A DNA stretch of 64,000 nucleotides from contig NZ_CP011786.1 in assembly GCF_001263395.1 (NCBI RefSeq), positions 434,001-498,000 of the forward strand. The letters are read 5' to 3'. The notes below the pieces were generated by a model. The model was not told the origin of the DNA. It searched no databases and saw nothing but the letters and a program-made list of their open reading frames with translations. Origin of the DNA: Bifidobacterium actinocoloniiforme DSM 22766 (lineage in GTDB: Bacteria > Actinomycetota > Actinomycetes > Actinomycetales > Bifidobacteriaceae). Of the stretch, positions 52,240 through 57,177 are shown piece by piece. Numbering within the stretch: the stretch's first letter is position 1; each line of letters opens with the position of its first letter. A program made the translations under genes and the position numbers.

Positions 52240-52769
52240 TGTACCGGCAGGTGGAAGCGCCCGACTTGGACGCCCTGGTGACCCTTGAGAAGACGGTGTT
52301 CGGCCCGGGTGCCTGGACTCGCGGGATGCTTGAGCAAGAGCTCAACGCGCCGGCCCGGACCTATCTGCTGTACGAGCAGGATGGCGAAATTCAGGCCTAT
52401 GGCGGTTTTTGGCATGATGGCGCAGACGCGGAGTTGATGACCATCGGTGTGCGCCCGGATTGTCGGGGCGCAGGCTTGGGCTCTGGATTATTGTCGCGCT
52501 TGATTGACCAGGCGCGGCACCAGTCGGCCGCCAGAATGCTCTTGGAAGTGCGTGTCGACAATGAGCCCGCCTTGGCCCTCTACCGGCGTTTCGGCTTCCG
52601 CCGACTGCGTTTGCGCAAACGCTACTACCAACCCGAGGGGATTGACGCATATGCCATGTCGGTGGATTTGCGGAGCCCCGCCGTGAGCGGGTTGCCGGTG
52701 GGCCACGAGGGCGCTCAGGCACGGATGGGCCAGACAGACAAGACAGGGATGGGACGGGACTATGAGTGA
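52239..52769 (+). CDS. rimI: GNAT acetyltransferase, RimI-like
   Basis: A 176-residue GNAT enzyme. The acetyl-CoA loop is VRPDCRGAGLGSGLLSRLID and the C-terminal block is EVRVDNEPALALYRRFGFRR. The position between tsaB and tsaD is that of ribosomal protein S18 N-terminal acetyltransferase in many bacteria. About 25 extra residues at the C terminus are low in complexity. It overlaps tsaD by 8 bp. Confidence 0.88.
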   Translation: MYRQVEAPDLDALVTLEKTVFGPGAWTRGMLEQELNAPARTYLLYEQDGEIQAYGGFWHDGADAELMTIGVRPDCRGAGLGSGLLSRLIDQARHQSAARMLLEVRVDNEPALALYRRFGFRRLRLRKRYYQPEGIDAYAMSVDLRSPAVSGLPVGHEGAQARMGQTDKTGMGRDYE

Positions 52770-53805
52770 AGCGGTGGTGCTGGGGATCGAATCGACCTGT
52801 GATGAGACGGCAGCCGCAGTCGTGCGCGGGCGGGAATTGCTGTCCAACGTGGTCGCCTCGTCGATGAACGAGCACGCCCGGTATGGTGGGGTGATTCCCG
52901 AGATTGCCTCCCGGGCCCATGCTGAGGCCTTCGTGCCGGTGGTAAGCCAGGCGTTATCGGATGCCCGGATGGAGTTGGCGGATGTGGACGCTATAGCGGT
53001 ATCGGCGGGTCCAGGTTTGGCTGGTTGCCTGGCTGTGGGCGTCTCCGGCGCTAAGGCTTTGGCCTGGGCGGCCGGCAAGCCCCTCTACGGGATCAACCAC
53101 GTCATCGGCCATATAGCGGTCACCCAGCTTCAATTCGGCGACTTCCCCGAAGGCACACTGGCTTTAATCGTCTCAGGGGGTCACACCTCCCTCCTGCATG
53201 TGCGTGACGTGGCGCGGCAGGTGGATGTGGTAGGCAGCACCCTGGATGACGCCGCGGGGGAGTGCTTTGACAAAATCGCCCGTATTCTAGGTTTTCCCTA
53301 CCCAGGCGGACCGCACATCGACCGGCATGCGCAAACCGGCAACCCCAAGGCCATCCGGGTCCCACAGGGGCTGACACAGGGCAGGGCGGGGGCGGAGCAC
53401 CCTTACGATTTCAGCTTCTCGGGGGTCAAAACCGCGGTCGCCCGCTGGGTGGAGGAGCAGGAGGACGCAGGTCGTCCTGTACCAATTGACGATGTATGCG
53501 CCTCCCTGGCCGATTCGGTAGCATCGGTATTGTCCCGTAAAGCCCTGGACGCCTGCGAGCTTTACGGTTCACACAGCCTGATTGTAGGTGGCGGTTTCAG
53601 CGCCAACTCCCAACTCAGGGCCAAACTAGCGCAGGAGGGAGCGGAGCGGGGCGTGCAAGTACGCATTCCTGAAGTTAAGCTCTGCACCGACAACGGCGCT
53701 ATGGTCGCCATGTTGGGGTCCAACCTGGTCCAGGCTGGCGTGCGTCCATCGCCAGCGGGTTTCTCCATCGACTCGGTCATGCCCCTGTCGAAAATCTGCA
53801 TGTAA
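52762..53805 (+). CDS. tsaD: tRNA t6A37 threonylcarbamoyltransferase TsaD
   Basis: A 347-residue TsaD (Gcp/Kae1). Features are VLGIESTCDETAAAVV, the metal-binding histidines in GINHVIGHIA, FSGVKTAVARWV and LIVGGGFSANSQLR. It transfers threonylcarbamoyl to A37 of ANN-decoding tRNAs with TsaB and TsaE, both encoded just upstream. It closes the comEA-tsaD operon. Confidence 0.96.
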   Translation: MSEAVVLGIESTCDETAAAVVRGRELLSNVVASSMNEHARYGGVIPEIASRAHAEAFVPVVSQALSDARMELADVDAIAVSAGPGLAGCLAVGVSGAKALAWAAGKPLYGINHVIGHIAVTQLQFGDFPEGTLALIVSGGHTSLLHVRDVARQVDVVGSTLDDAAGECFDKIARILGFPYPGGPHIDRHAQTGNPKAIRVPQGLTQGRAGAEHPYDFSFSGVKTAVARWVEEQEDAGRPVPIDDVCASLADSVASVLSRKALDACELYGSHSLIVGGGFSANSQLRAKLAQEGAERGVQVRIPEVKLCTDNGAMVAMLGSNLVQAGVRPSPAGFSIDSVMPLSKICM

Positions 53806-53861: not shown

Positions 53862-53914
53862 TTGCCAAAGTGATGTTCTGTTGTATAAAAGTACTTTATG
53901 ATATAAAGTACTTT
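53862..53914 (+). promoter_or_regulatory. Promoter with doubled palindromic operator (AAAGTACTTT x2)
   Basis: TTGCCA (53862-53867) and TATAAA (53884-53889) are 16 bp apart. AAAGTACTTT occurs at 53888-53897 and again at 53905-53914, and the whole 27 bp reads as a near-perfect larger palindrome. It covers the -10 box and start point of the membrane protein/HTH operon, so the HTH protein downstream is the obvious candidate for binding it. Confidence 0.75.
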
Positions 53915-53961
53915 TTATCGGGGGATGTTCAATTGATGACGCACAACAGAAAGGCAGCACA

Positions 53962-54657
53962 ATGACGAAGTTCGATGAAGCCAACCATTGTCCAAGCGTG
54001 GCCGGCGACCCTGAATCAATCAGCGATCCCGCCACCGCTATGCGCATCATCGCAAGTGACCAGTCCAAGCTGAACGCCCGGTTCGCCGGCCGAAAACAGG
54101 TGATCTTCCTGGTCTGGGGGCTGGCATGGCTGGTGGGCTACCTGGTTCTGGCCTTCTCATCCATGACCCACCACGGGGAGCCGCAAGGGTGGGCCTACGT
54201 CCTGTTCGCCATCGCGCTGCTTTGCGGAGCTGTGCTCTTCGTGGCCTTCCATGTCCGGGCCAGTCGGGGATGGCGTGGGCAATCGCAGCTGAAAGGCGCA
54301 GCCTATGCCTGGTCCTGGCTGTTCGCCTTCGCGGCGGGCATGTCGATTTGCGGCCTGATCGTAGTGCATTTCGACCTGAGCGACTCGATGTCATGGCTTC
54401 TTTACAATAGCGTGGCGGCTTTCATCGTCGGCCTGCAATATATGGCTGGCGGTCTCTTAGGCAACTTCGACCTGCCCATGTACCTTGGCGGGCTCTTCAT
54501 GCTGGTGCTCTCGGTCGCCATGCTCCTGCTGACCAGCACCGTGGGCTTCTTCGTGATGGCCTTGCTGGGCGGAGGCAGTTTCCTTACGCTGGCTCTGGTT
54601 GTGCGCATCAACTCCCGGCGGCACAGCACTTCCGGGGTTGAGGGTGGGCGAGCATGA
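53962..54657 (+). CDS. Membrane protein of unknown function, paired with an HTH regulator
   Basis: A 231-residue protein. After ~45 polar residues (MTKFDEANHCPSVAGDPESI) come about six helices, for example VIFLVWGLAWLVGYLVLAF, WAYVLFAIALLCGAVLFVAF and MYLGGLFMLVLSVAMLLL. I do not recognise the family. AAAGG lies 8 nt upstream of the ATG. Its stop overlaps the start of the HTH gene (ATGA), and a double operator sits on the shared promoter. Similar pairs in Gram-positives often involve transporters or sensors, but nothing in this sequence settles a role. Confidence 0.8.
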   Translation: MTKFDEANHCPSVAGDPESISDPATAMRIIASDQSKLNARFAGRKQVIFLVWGLAWLVGYLVLAFSSMTHHGEPQGWAYVLFAIALLCGAVLFVAFHVRASRGWRGQSQLKGAAYAWSWLFAFAAGMSICGLIVVHFDLSDSMSWLLYNSVAAFIVGLQYMAGGLLGNFDLPMYLGGLFMLVLSVAMLLLTSTVGFFVMALLGGGSFLTLALVVRINSRRHSTSGVEGGRA

Positions 54658-54977
54658 GCGGGGATCTTGATCCGGTCATCCACGCCGCCTCGCGTTTGCG
54701 CATTATGGCTGTCCTGTCCCATATGGAAGCGGATGGGGAGATGTCGTTCGAGAACCTGCGTCAACTGTTGGATATGACCGCAGGCAACCTCTCGGTCCAC
54801 GCGGGCAAGCTTGAGCAGGCCGGTTACGTGCGCATCGCCAAGACCTTCGAAGGCCGTAAGCCAGCCACCTACCTGTCTTTGACGGACAAGGGCCGGGCCG
54901 CCTACCAGAACTACTTGCTGCAACTGCGCGCGCTGCTGACAGGGGAAGGCACCGCAAAGGGCGAGTCGGAGGGGTGA
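54654..54977 (+). CDS. Winged-helix transcriptional regulator (HTH_34/MarR-like)
   Basis: A 107-residue small winged-helix protein. IHAASRLRIMAVLSHMEADG precedes the helix-turn-helix FENLRQLLDMTAGNLSVHAG and a wing VRIAKTFEGRKPATYLSLTD. This matches the small transcriptional regulators of the PF13601 type (ArsR/MarR-like fold). It is translationally coupled to the membrane gene and probably binds the AAAGTACTTT repeats upstream of that gene. Confidence 0.88.
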   Translation: MSGDLDPVIHAASRLRIMAVLSHMEADGEMSFENLRQLLDMTAGNLSVHAGKLEQAGYVRIAKTFEGRKPATYLSLTDKGRAAYQNYLLQLRALLTGEGTAKGESEG

Positions 54978-55129: not shown

Positions 55130-55202
55130 TCCCGCGTAGCTCAGTTGGCAGAGCGTCTGACTGTTAATCAGAATGTCGCTGGTTCAAGCCCAGCCGCGGG
55201 AG
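55130..55202 (+). tRNA. tRNA-Asn (anticodon GTT)
   Basis: Acceptor TCCCGCG pairs with CGCGGGA, the anticodon stem TCTGA/TCAGA holds CTGTTAA so the anticodon is GTT, and the T arm is GCTGGTTCAAGCCCAGC. CCA is not encoded. Confidence 0.96.
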
Positions 55203-55338
55203 CTCGTCTCCTGGAGAGTGATTGGTTCTCCTTAATTTGCAGGTTTCCTGCCTCCTTGTGAAGTTTCATACGCATTCGCGTAAGCCCTCCCTTTGGAACC
55301 GTGATTCGTAATAGGCTTGTAGTAGCCCTTGCGCGGTG

Positions 55339-55366: not shown

Positions 55367-55410
55367 AAGCAGACTGACCCATCTCGTCTGCCCCGTACAG
55401 GAGGTTGTGC

Positions 55411-57177
55411 ATGTCAAACGGAACGACTGCCGAAGGCAGGATCAACGCGGGCGACGCGGTATTGCGAGTTCTGGAGCAGTGGGGGGTGCCGCGCATCTAT
55501 GGTCTTCCCGGAGGCTCTTTCGACTCGATGATGAATGCCCTCCACAACGAGCGCGAGCGCGTGGATTTCATCCAAGTTCGTCATGAGGAAGCGGGCGCTA
55601 TCGCGGCCGCCGCCGAAGCCAAGCTGACTGGACGCATCGGCGTCTGCTTCGGGTCCTCCGGCCCCGGTGCGGCCCACCTGCTCAACGGCCTGTACGACGC
55701 TAGGGAGGACGGCGTACCCGTCTTGGCGCTCGTCGGCGAGGTGCCCCAGCAATTCATGAACACGGACTTCTTCCAAGCCATGGACGAAGTGCCGATGTTC
55801 ACCGACGTGGCAGTCTTCGACAAGGCCGCCACCAACGCCCAGGGTCTGCCCGTCCTGGTTGATGAGGCCATCCGCCGCGCTTATAAGTACAAGGGCGTCT
55901 CGGTGGTCATCATCCCCAAGGACCTGGCCTGGGACGACATCGTCGATCTGCCGGTGGCCACCGCGAAGAACTTCCGCGAACCGGCTCCGATTCCGCCCCG
56001 CCCCGATTTGATTCAGGAGGCGGTCAAGCTCGTCCAGTCGGCCGAACGCCCTCTGCTGTATTTTGGTATAGGGGCCAAGGACGCTCATGACGAGCTGATT
56101 GAAATGTCAGAGAAGTTCAGGATGCCTCTGACTTCAACTTTTCCTGCAAAGGGCATCGTAGAGGACGGCTACCCGGCTTACCTGCAGTCCGCTGGCCGCG
56201 TAGCCACAAAAACCGCCAATGAGGCCCAGTACGCCTGTGACGTGATGCTCTGGGTGGGCTCCGACAACCCCTTCGGCTCCCAACTCGTATCGCCTCACAC
56301 AAGGATCGTTCAGATCGACACCGACGGCGCCAAGTTGGGCAAGCGCTTTGAGCCCGAGGTGGCCCTGGCCATCCAAGCGGACGCCAAGCTGGCCCTGCGA
56401 GCGATTTTGGACGCCGGTCAGGAGCAGGAGTCCAAGCCCTTCTTCCGGGCCTGCATCAAGAGCAAGGAGAACTGGAACGAGTGGATCGACTCCTTCAAGG
56501 ACGATGCCTCTACCCCGCTACGACCCGAGCCCATTTTCAACATCATTAACGAGCAGATGGAGGATGATGACATCTTCATCCCCGACGTGGGCAATGTGGA
56601 CATCAACTTCCTACGCCTGGCCAAGATCAAGCCGTCCAACCGTTGGTGCGTCTCCGGCAAGCACGCCACGATGGGCTTCGCGGTCCCAGGCGCTTTGGCG
56701 GCCAAGCTGGAGTACCCGGATTCCACCGTCTACTCCCTGTCGGGCGACGGCGGTTTCGCCATGCTGAGCGAGGAGGTTCTGGCCCAGCTCAAGTACAACG
56801 CGCCGGTCATCAACGTGGTCTTCTCCAACGAGTCCTTGGGCTTCATCGAGGCCGAGCAGCTGGATGACTCCCATCAGCCCTTGTCTGGCGTGGACCTGCC
56901 GGACACGGACTGGGCCAAGGTGGGCGAGGGCTACGGGGCACTGGGCTTCACAGTGCGCACCCTGGACGATGCTAAACGGGCGTTCGCCGAGGCTAGGGCC
57001 GCCGACAAGCCCTCGGTCATCGACGTCAAGCTCACCCGCGAGCGTCCATTGGACACCCGCTACATGCACTTCTCCGAGACTTGCGAGGATCCCGAGCAGG
57101 TTAAGCGGTTCCAGGACCGTCTGCAGGCTGGTTCGCTCAAGTCCCTGGCATACTGGATGGCCCAGGAGAGCAAGTAA
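55411..57177 (+). CDS. Pyruvate oxidase (H2O2-forming, SpxB/Pox-like)
   Basis: A 588-residue ThDP/FAD enzyme. The N-terminal PYR domain has YGLPGGSFDSMMNAL and the ThDP Glu in VRHEEAGAIAAAAEAKLTG; then CFGSSGPGAAHLLNGLYDAR and DGVPVLALVGEV, a pattern close to lactic-acid-bacterial pyruvate oxidase. The C-terminal PP domain carries the GDG motif SLSGDGGFAMLSEEVLAQ followed by NAPVINVVFSNESLGFIEAE. It converts pyruvate, phosphate and O2 to acetyl phosphate, CO2 and H2O2. The ATG at 55411 has CAGGAGG ~7 nt upstream. Acetolactate synthase or glyoxylate carboligase are less likely. Confidence 0.88.
   Translation: MSNGTTAEGRINAGDAVLRVLEQWGVPRIYGLPGGSFDSMMNALHNERERVDFIQVRHEEAGAIAAAAEAKLTGRIGVCFGSSGPGAAHLLNGLYDAREDGVPVLALVGEVPQQFMNTDFFQAMDEVPMFTDVAVFDKAATNAQGLPVLVDEAIRRAYKYKGVSVVIIPKDLAWDDIVDLPVATAKNFREPAPIPPRPDLIQEAVKLVQSAERPLLYFGIGAKDAHDELIEMSEKFRMPLTSTFPAKGIVEDGYPAYLQSAGRVATKTANEAQYACDVMLWVGSDNPFGSQLVSPHTRIVQIDTDGAKLGKRFEPEVALAIQADAKLALRAILDAGQEQESKPFFRACIKSKENWNEWIDSFKDDASTPLRPEPIFNIINEQMEDDDIFIPDVGNVDINFLRLAKIKPSNRWCVSGKHATMGFAVPGALAAKLEYPDSTVYSLSGDGGFAMLSEEVLAQLKYNAPVINVVFSNESLGFIEAEQLDDSHQPLSGVDLPDTDWAKVGEGYGALGFTVRTLDDAKRAFAEARAADKPSVIDVKLTRERPLDTRYMHFSETCEDPEQVKRFQDRLQAGSLKSLAYWMAQESK

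Follow-up and report, generated by a model that had tools for sequence, protein, structure and literature searches.

Organization of the Locus

The DNA analyzed here, referred to as the window, is a stretch of 64,000 nucleotides. The locus under study consists of two genes read on the forward strand: mem (53962–54657), an open reading frame encoding a membrane protein of 231 residues, and wh (54654–54977), which encodes a winged-helix protein of 107 residues and whose start codon overlaps the stop codon of mem in the sequence ATGA. An earlier note on this DNA described just such a coupled, overlapping pair. The genes are preceded by a doubled palindromic operator (53888–53914) and are bordered on the left by tsaD (52762–53805) and on the right by tRNA-Asn(GTT) (55130–55203, forward strand).

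Among 27 genomes of the genus, the window species and G126 have mem-wh between tsaD and tRNA-Asn; in G137 it lies behind tsaD, and the tRNA-Asn of that genome is visible in locus L006. The order tsaD, mem-wh, tRNA-Asn is likewise found in B. aemilianum (L028). In most species of the genus that lack the pair, tRNA-Asn follows tsaD after about 80–300 bp, leaving an empty site. In these arrangements, the pair and its operator behave as an optional unit. Degraded copies of mem, with a split frame and internal stops, occur in two bifidobacterial genomes (L018/L024 in G025 and L023 in G038), suggesting that the cassette may be dispensable.

Conservation of the Gene Pair

A scan of 84,980 species together with a phylum sample gave a set of 83 actinobacterial loci, which includes the window itself and in which several entries repeat loci of the family. 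Comparison of the gene neighborhoods, as the earlier note had proposed, reveals that wh immediately follows mem in 80 of the 83, and two of the three others are matches at contig ends. The set includes Promicromonospora, Cellulomonas, Isoptericola, Actinomyces, Nonomuraea, and Acidimicrobiales. What had been put forward as a single undescribed candidate is instead a pair of genes widespread in actinobacteria; one annotated relative labels them “hypothetical protein” and “transcriptional regulator.”

Within the family, relatives of mem are found in 21 of 189 genomes. Three of these, all of genus g15, have no wh nearby; in 17 of the remaining 18 wh adjoins mem, and the last match (L019) stops at the end of its contig. 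The proteins from genus g15 (L020, L021, and L022, in genomes G186, G185, and G187) also lack the N-terminal DP..AL helix and carry long Ser/Lys-rich C-terminal tails.

The association of wh with a membrane partner extends further than mem itself. In a class-wide sample, every one of the 25 relatives of wh directly follows a gene whose product has two or more hydrophobic segments, and 16 of these upstream membrane proteins are not detectably homologous to mem. Conservation of the linkage between wh and a membrane protein thus reaches beyond that of the membrane protein's sequence. No fusion of mem and wh was seen. The HTH_34 relatives L125–L140 in the class stand behind short membrane proteins with 2–6 predicted transmembrane segments, unrelated in sequence to mem. 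By eye, several of these unrelated partners begin with a similar, amphipathic short helix of the form DP/TP..A..L before TM1.

The Winged-Helix Protein

The identification of the smaller protein as a winged-helix regulator is borne out, and the protein can be placed in a known family, HTH_34 (PF13601; E=1.4e-23, 83.3 bits against a gathering cut-off of 27, profile positions 2–79 of 80). Its nearest solved structure is that of archaeal PH1061 (1UB9; E=2.4e-6; profile E=6e-9). Scores for related families lie under their curated cut-offs: 15.3 against 27 for PadR, 23.2 against 27 for MarR_2, 20.2 against 22 for ArsR HTH_5, and 25.2 against 55 for HTH_metalloreg. There is no Pfam match to LytTR in wh. 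The genome holds three other matches to PF13601, all weaker than wh. A PADLOC assignment to the CRISPR regulator Csa3 (E=1e-7) is a winged-helix cross-match, rejected because wh is a single-domain protein with no room for a CARF domain.

In the open-licence literature, no paper was found that names PF13601, and none that mentions PH1061 alongside “winged helix”; the family name therefore brings no function for wh. Residue 36 of wh, in the helix before the recognition helix, tracks the choice between AAAGT and AAACT half-sites, possibly only through phylogeny. The covariation of this position with the half-site C/G gives z 11.4 against a shuffle that ignores phylogeny, and it is not used here as evidence.

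The Doubled Operator

Two perfect AAAGTACTTT palindromes, at 53888–53897 and 53905–53914, stand 17 bp apart from start to start upstream of mem, and together they provide four half-sites in an unstranded, 27-bp imperfect dyad. The doubled operator and larger dyad of the earlier note are therefore real. They are also the only copies in the genome, since the exact 10-mer does not occur elsewhere in its 1.83 Mb. Allowing up to one mismatch, the window has 3 matches where 0.23 are expected, a number reached in 0 of 100 shuffles of the window; the count exceeds chance. The doubled motif (up to two mismatches) is found in 3 of the 189 family genomes, and every copy is just upstream of a mem gene.

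Alignment of the regions upstream of mem in bifidobacterial relatives reveals a common 17-bp dyad, represented in the window by ACTTTATGATATAAAGT (53893–53909, unstranded), for which the family consensus is RSTTTGYANYRCAAASY. A symmetric matrix built from 14 bifidobacterial sites only, applied at a threshold of at least 12 bits, finds a site upstream of mem in 67 of the 70 loci from outside the bifidobacteria; of 1,360 control tiles of 300 bp from the same loci, none reaches that score. A shuffle control of the footprint had also been run before the tile control. By phylogenetic footprinting, the doubled operator proposed in the earlier note is strongly conserved across relatives.

For 81 non-redundant sites, the logo gives the consensus quoted above, with TTT and AAA almost invariant and an outer half-site on either side. 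These outer half-sites, which played no part in selecting the 81 sites, match in at least 4 of 5 positions on the left in 58 and on the right in 41, and on one side or the other in 74; the background is 1.7% per fixed place. The inner dyad is the most constrained part of the operator among relatives, and the outer half-sites are less strict, which refines the original description. The form that this architecture takes in most actinobacteria is AAACTRGTTT-N7-AAACYRGTTT. Given this conserved arrangement of four half-sites, the doubled palindrome of the window can be regarded as its AAAGTACTTT version. Relatives differ in the half-site, which is AAAGT in some and AAACT in others (L012–L017, L031, L059, and non-bifidobacterial loci).

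Within a genome, moreover, the operator is nearly unique. The genome of the window contains a single ASTTTN7AAAST core and no site with one mismatch; at two mismatches there are seven further sites, for a total of 8, compared with 19 for the reversed-pattern control. Of 12 related genomes, 8 contain the strict core, each with one copy at the mem-wh locus; the other 4 have no site for the strict pattern. Only 2 of the 8 contain a second strict site, with neither mem nor wh there. The dyad is therefore essentially unique per genome where the search found it, and it is placed at the mem-wh promoter. It follows that the likely regulon is the mem-wh operon itself. Further targets with degenerate sites, at two or more mismatches, are possible.

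The Promoter

In the earlier note the promoter was read on the forward strand as TTGCCA (53862–53867), a spacer of 16 bp, and TATAAA (53884–53889), overlaid by the operator. That sequence is present and matches the consensus at 10 of 12 positions; it is the better-matching register in the window, and the same register is found at many non-bifidobacterial loci. The choice of register is uncertain. Most bifidobacterial relatives have another, TTGnnn-16/17-TAAA[G/C]T, in which the right half-site serves as the −10 element. The form TTGACA-16/17-TAAA[G/C]T is seen among them, and its counterpart in the window is TTGTAT (53881–53886), 17 bp, and TAAAGT (53904–53909), spanning 53881–53909 on the forward strand. 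This is a weaker match to the consensus, and here the dyad occupies both the spacer and the −10 element. Both registers are represented among relatives; a generic promoter scan listed neither.

Whichever register applies, the dyad covers the −10 or start region, or the −35/−10 spacer. A protein bound there would obstruct RNA polymerase, which fits repression. In one of the two registers, the position of the operator may also be compatible with activation.

The Membrane Protein

The AlphaFold model of mem, based on 36 aligned sequences (mean pLDDT 88.9), consists of six long helices at residues 23–69, 76–101, 108–137, 141–166, 171–189, and 192–228. The first of these passes from a predicted cytoplasmic segment into TM1, so that a cytoplasmic N-terminal helix is continuous with the first of six transmembrane helices. 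Both ends of the protein are probably cytoplasmic by the positive-inside rule, as judged from the basic character of the N-terminal helix, loop 2, and the C-terminal tail.

Recurrent motifs are DPxxAL, WGxAWLxGY, RGxS, and GGG. Invariant or nearly invariant residues are Trp52, Gly53, Trp56, and Tyr60 in TM1 and Gly203–Gly205 in TM6. The loop between TM2 and TM3 (residues 98–113) is conserved and basic, and its glycines are invariant or nearly so. Within the transmembrane helices Asn149 is the only conserved polar residue, and comparison across relatives finds no conserved charge. The lack of conserved charge weakens the case for an ion-coupled transporter.

The earlier note had recognized no family for this protein and had called for structure prediction and a remote homology search; the six-helix model came with no database match that gives a function. 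Neither mem alone nor its relatives bring any Pfam or NCBIfam match near cut-off. A profile search of the PDB found no relative, and Foldseek returned no match at E<=0.001 in the PDB or among viral structures, the best E values being about 0.3–0.45 (0.45 in the PDB). Thus the protein is, as supposed, without a Pfam or NCBIfam family or a solved fold. Candidate assignments to DUF2298, QoxC, RnfD, Bestrophin-like proteins, or T6SS lie far under their cut-offs, are inconsistent among members, and were rejected.

Mechanism and Alternatives

The explanation that we consider likely is that mem-wh is an optional, autoregulated two-gene cassette, its operon repressed by wh and its output being mem. 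We infer that wh is the protein that binds the operator, and that it acts as a repressor rather than an activator. It would occupy the four half-sites on the −10/start region, probably as two cooperating dimers, and when bound it would block RNA polymerase and so repress mem-wh. Some cue would lift wh off the DNA, whereupon chiefly mem would be made. Translational coupling through ATGA would match the amount of wh to that of mem, which would let the switch close again.

Because almost nothing else is apparently controlled, mem is probably the effector; the near uniqueness of the operator suggests that mem is what the circuit produces, and not a sensor serving a broader regulon. Its job and the cue can be guessed at: mem might, for example, protect the membrane or export a membrane-active compound, and the cue might act on wh directly or through mem. 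The constant pairing of wh with a membrane partner, together with the conserved cytoplasmic helix, makes a feedback contact between the two proteins plausible. It counts against this explanation that HTH_34 proteins are small and that no ligand site has been identified.

It is possible, and we entertain it tentatively, that wh is instead a membrane-tethered repressor. In that case mem would be the sensor, its N-terminal helix and TM2–TM3 loop holding or releasing wh depending on the condition of the membrane. With the same hesitation, the pair could then be compared with LytTR regulatory systems and HAAS-PadR pairs as a kinase-free, two-part system. The unbroken helix from cytoplasm into TM1 and the conserved, basic loop 98–113 would suit such a role, as would the position of all 25 class-wide wh relatives behind membrane-protein genes, 16 of them unrelated to mem, and the short helix before TM1 that several of these unrelated partners appear by eye to share. 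Since the outer loops of mem are very short, any sensing would take place in the membrane. The essentially unique operator argues otherwise, because a pure sensor would then control only itself, and the absence of any observed mem-wh fusion also weighs against tethering.

A somewhat doubtful but still possible interpretation is that mem is an ordinary transporter and wh a local ligand-sensing repressor of the TetR/MarR/PadR-like kind, which binds the compound that mem moves and so derepresses the operon. The gene layout of mem-wh matches that of many local-repressor/transporter pairs, and a near-unique operator on its own promoter and patchy presence as a cassette point the same way. Set against these features are the lack of any sequence or fold match of mem to a transporter (best PDB Foldseek E=0.45, no profile match) and the membrane helices themselves, with Asn149 their only conserved polar residue and no conserved charge.

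That wh activates its own operon, in a positive feedback like that of LytTR regulatory systems, seems quite improbable. Autoregulated operons of the LytTR type, which combine a regulator with a membrane protein, do use positive feedback (PMC6193735), but LytTR repeats lie upstream of −35, whereas the dyad here lies on the −10/start region or in the −35/−10 spacer.

Rather unlikely, in our estimate, is a broader generalization in which the pair would belong to a kinase-free actinobacterial family whose assorted small multi-TM proteins, each with a cytoplasmic N-terminal helix, capture and release a dedicated HTH_34 repressor. The same low expectation attaches to its joint form, in which the membrane protein would both sense the state of the membrane and be the only regulated product, making a self-contained membrane homeostat.

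Relation to Known Systems

The pair resembles both LytTR regulatory systems and HAAS-PadR pairs and belongs to neither. The LytTR systems HdrRM and BrsRM are operons of an autoregulated regulator and a multi-TM protein that operate by positive feedback (PMC6193735). They share with mem-wh the two-gene autoregulated organization, the combination of a soluble regulator with a multi-TM protein, and repeated operator elements at the promoter. In contrast, wh is a winged helix of the HTH_34 family rather than a LytTR protein, the membrane gene comes first in mem-wh, the sites are dyads that lie on the promoter, where LytTR systems have direct repeats upstream of −35, and repression is expected in place of positive feedback; no sequence relation is seen.

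HAAS-PadR-like wHTH systems have been proposed as an alternative to two-component systems (PMC11237479). The likeness lies in the constant pairing of a stand-alone winged helix with a multi-TM partner, observed here for 25 of 25 relatives of wh. However, mem and 35 relatives have no Pfam match to DUF1700, DUF1129, or DUF1048, the model of mem has one N-terminal helix instead of the three-helix HAAS fold, and wh scores as HTH_34 and falls under the PadR cut-off. Similarly, repressor-transporter pairs of the MarR, ArsR, PadR, and TetR types resemble mem-wh in having a small regulator with its own operator beside a membrane protein, but wh scores under the MarR, ArsR, and PadR cut-offs and mem matches no transporter family. 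By the Pfam cut-off and the profile match to 1UB9, the kinship of wh is clearly with the HTH_34/PH1061-like family.

We found no description of the mem-wh pair in open-licence papers, and one may exist elsewhere. Literature searches with AAAGTACTTT gave, among the matches listed, none on the pair by title, and GCAAACTAGTTTG gave no match. The pair constitutes an undescribed actinobacterial module that can be recognized from three independent features: an invariant order of the genes, an operator of four half-sites that recurs in dozens of genomes, and a family of membrane proteins with neither name nor solved fold. It is further evidence that two-component systems may have a common alternative in the stand-alone winged helix with a membrane partner. 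The near-unique operator and the clean empty sites in sister species make its function testable by simple deletion or strain-to-strain transfer.

Neighboring Genes

The pyruvate-oxidase-like gene at 55405–57177 was considered as a functional partner of the pair and rejected. In locus L156 it follows tRNA-Asn with no mem-wh present, and hence it belongs to the tRNA side. Distant pyruvate-oxidase-like copies (41% identity), which the tRNA-side reading does not account for, stand directly after mem-wh in B. subtile and B. tibiigranuli (L029:4348–6093 and L040:4410–6155).
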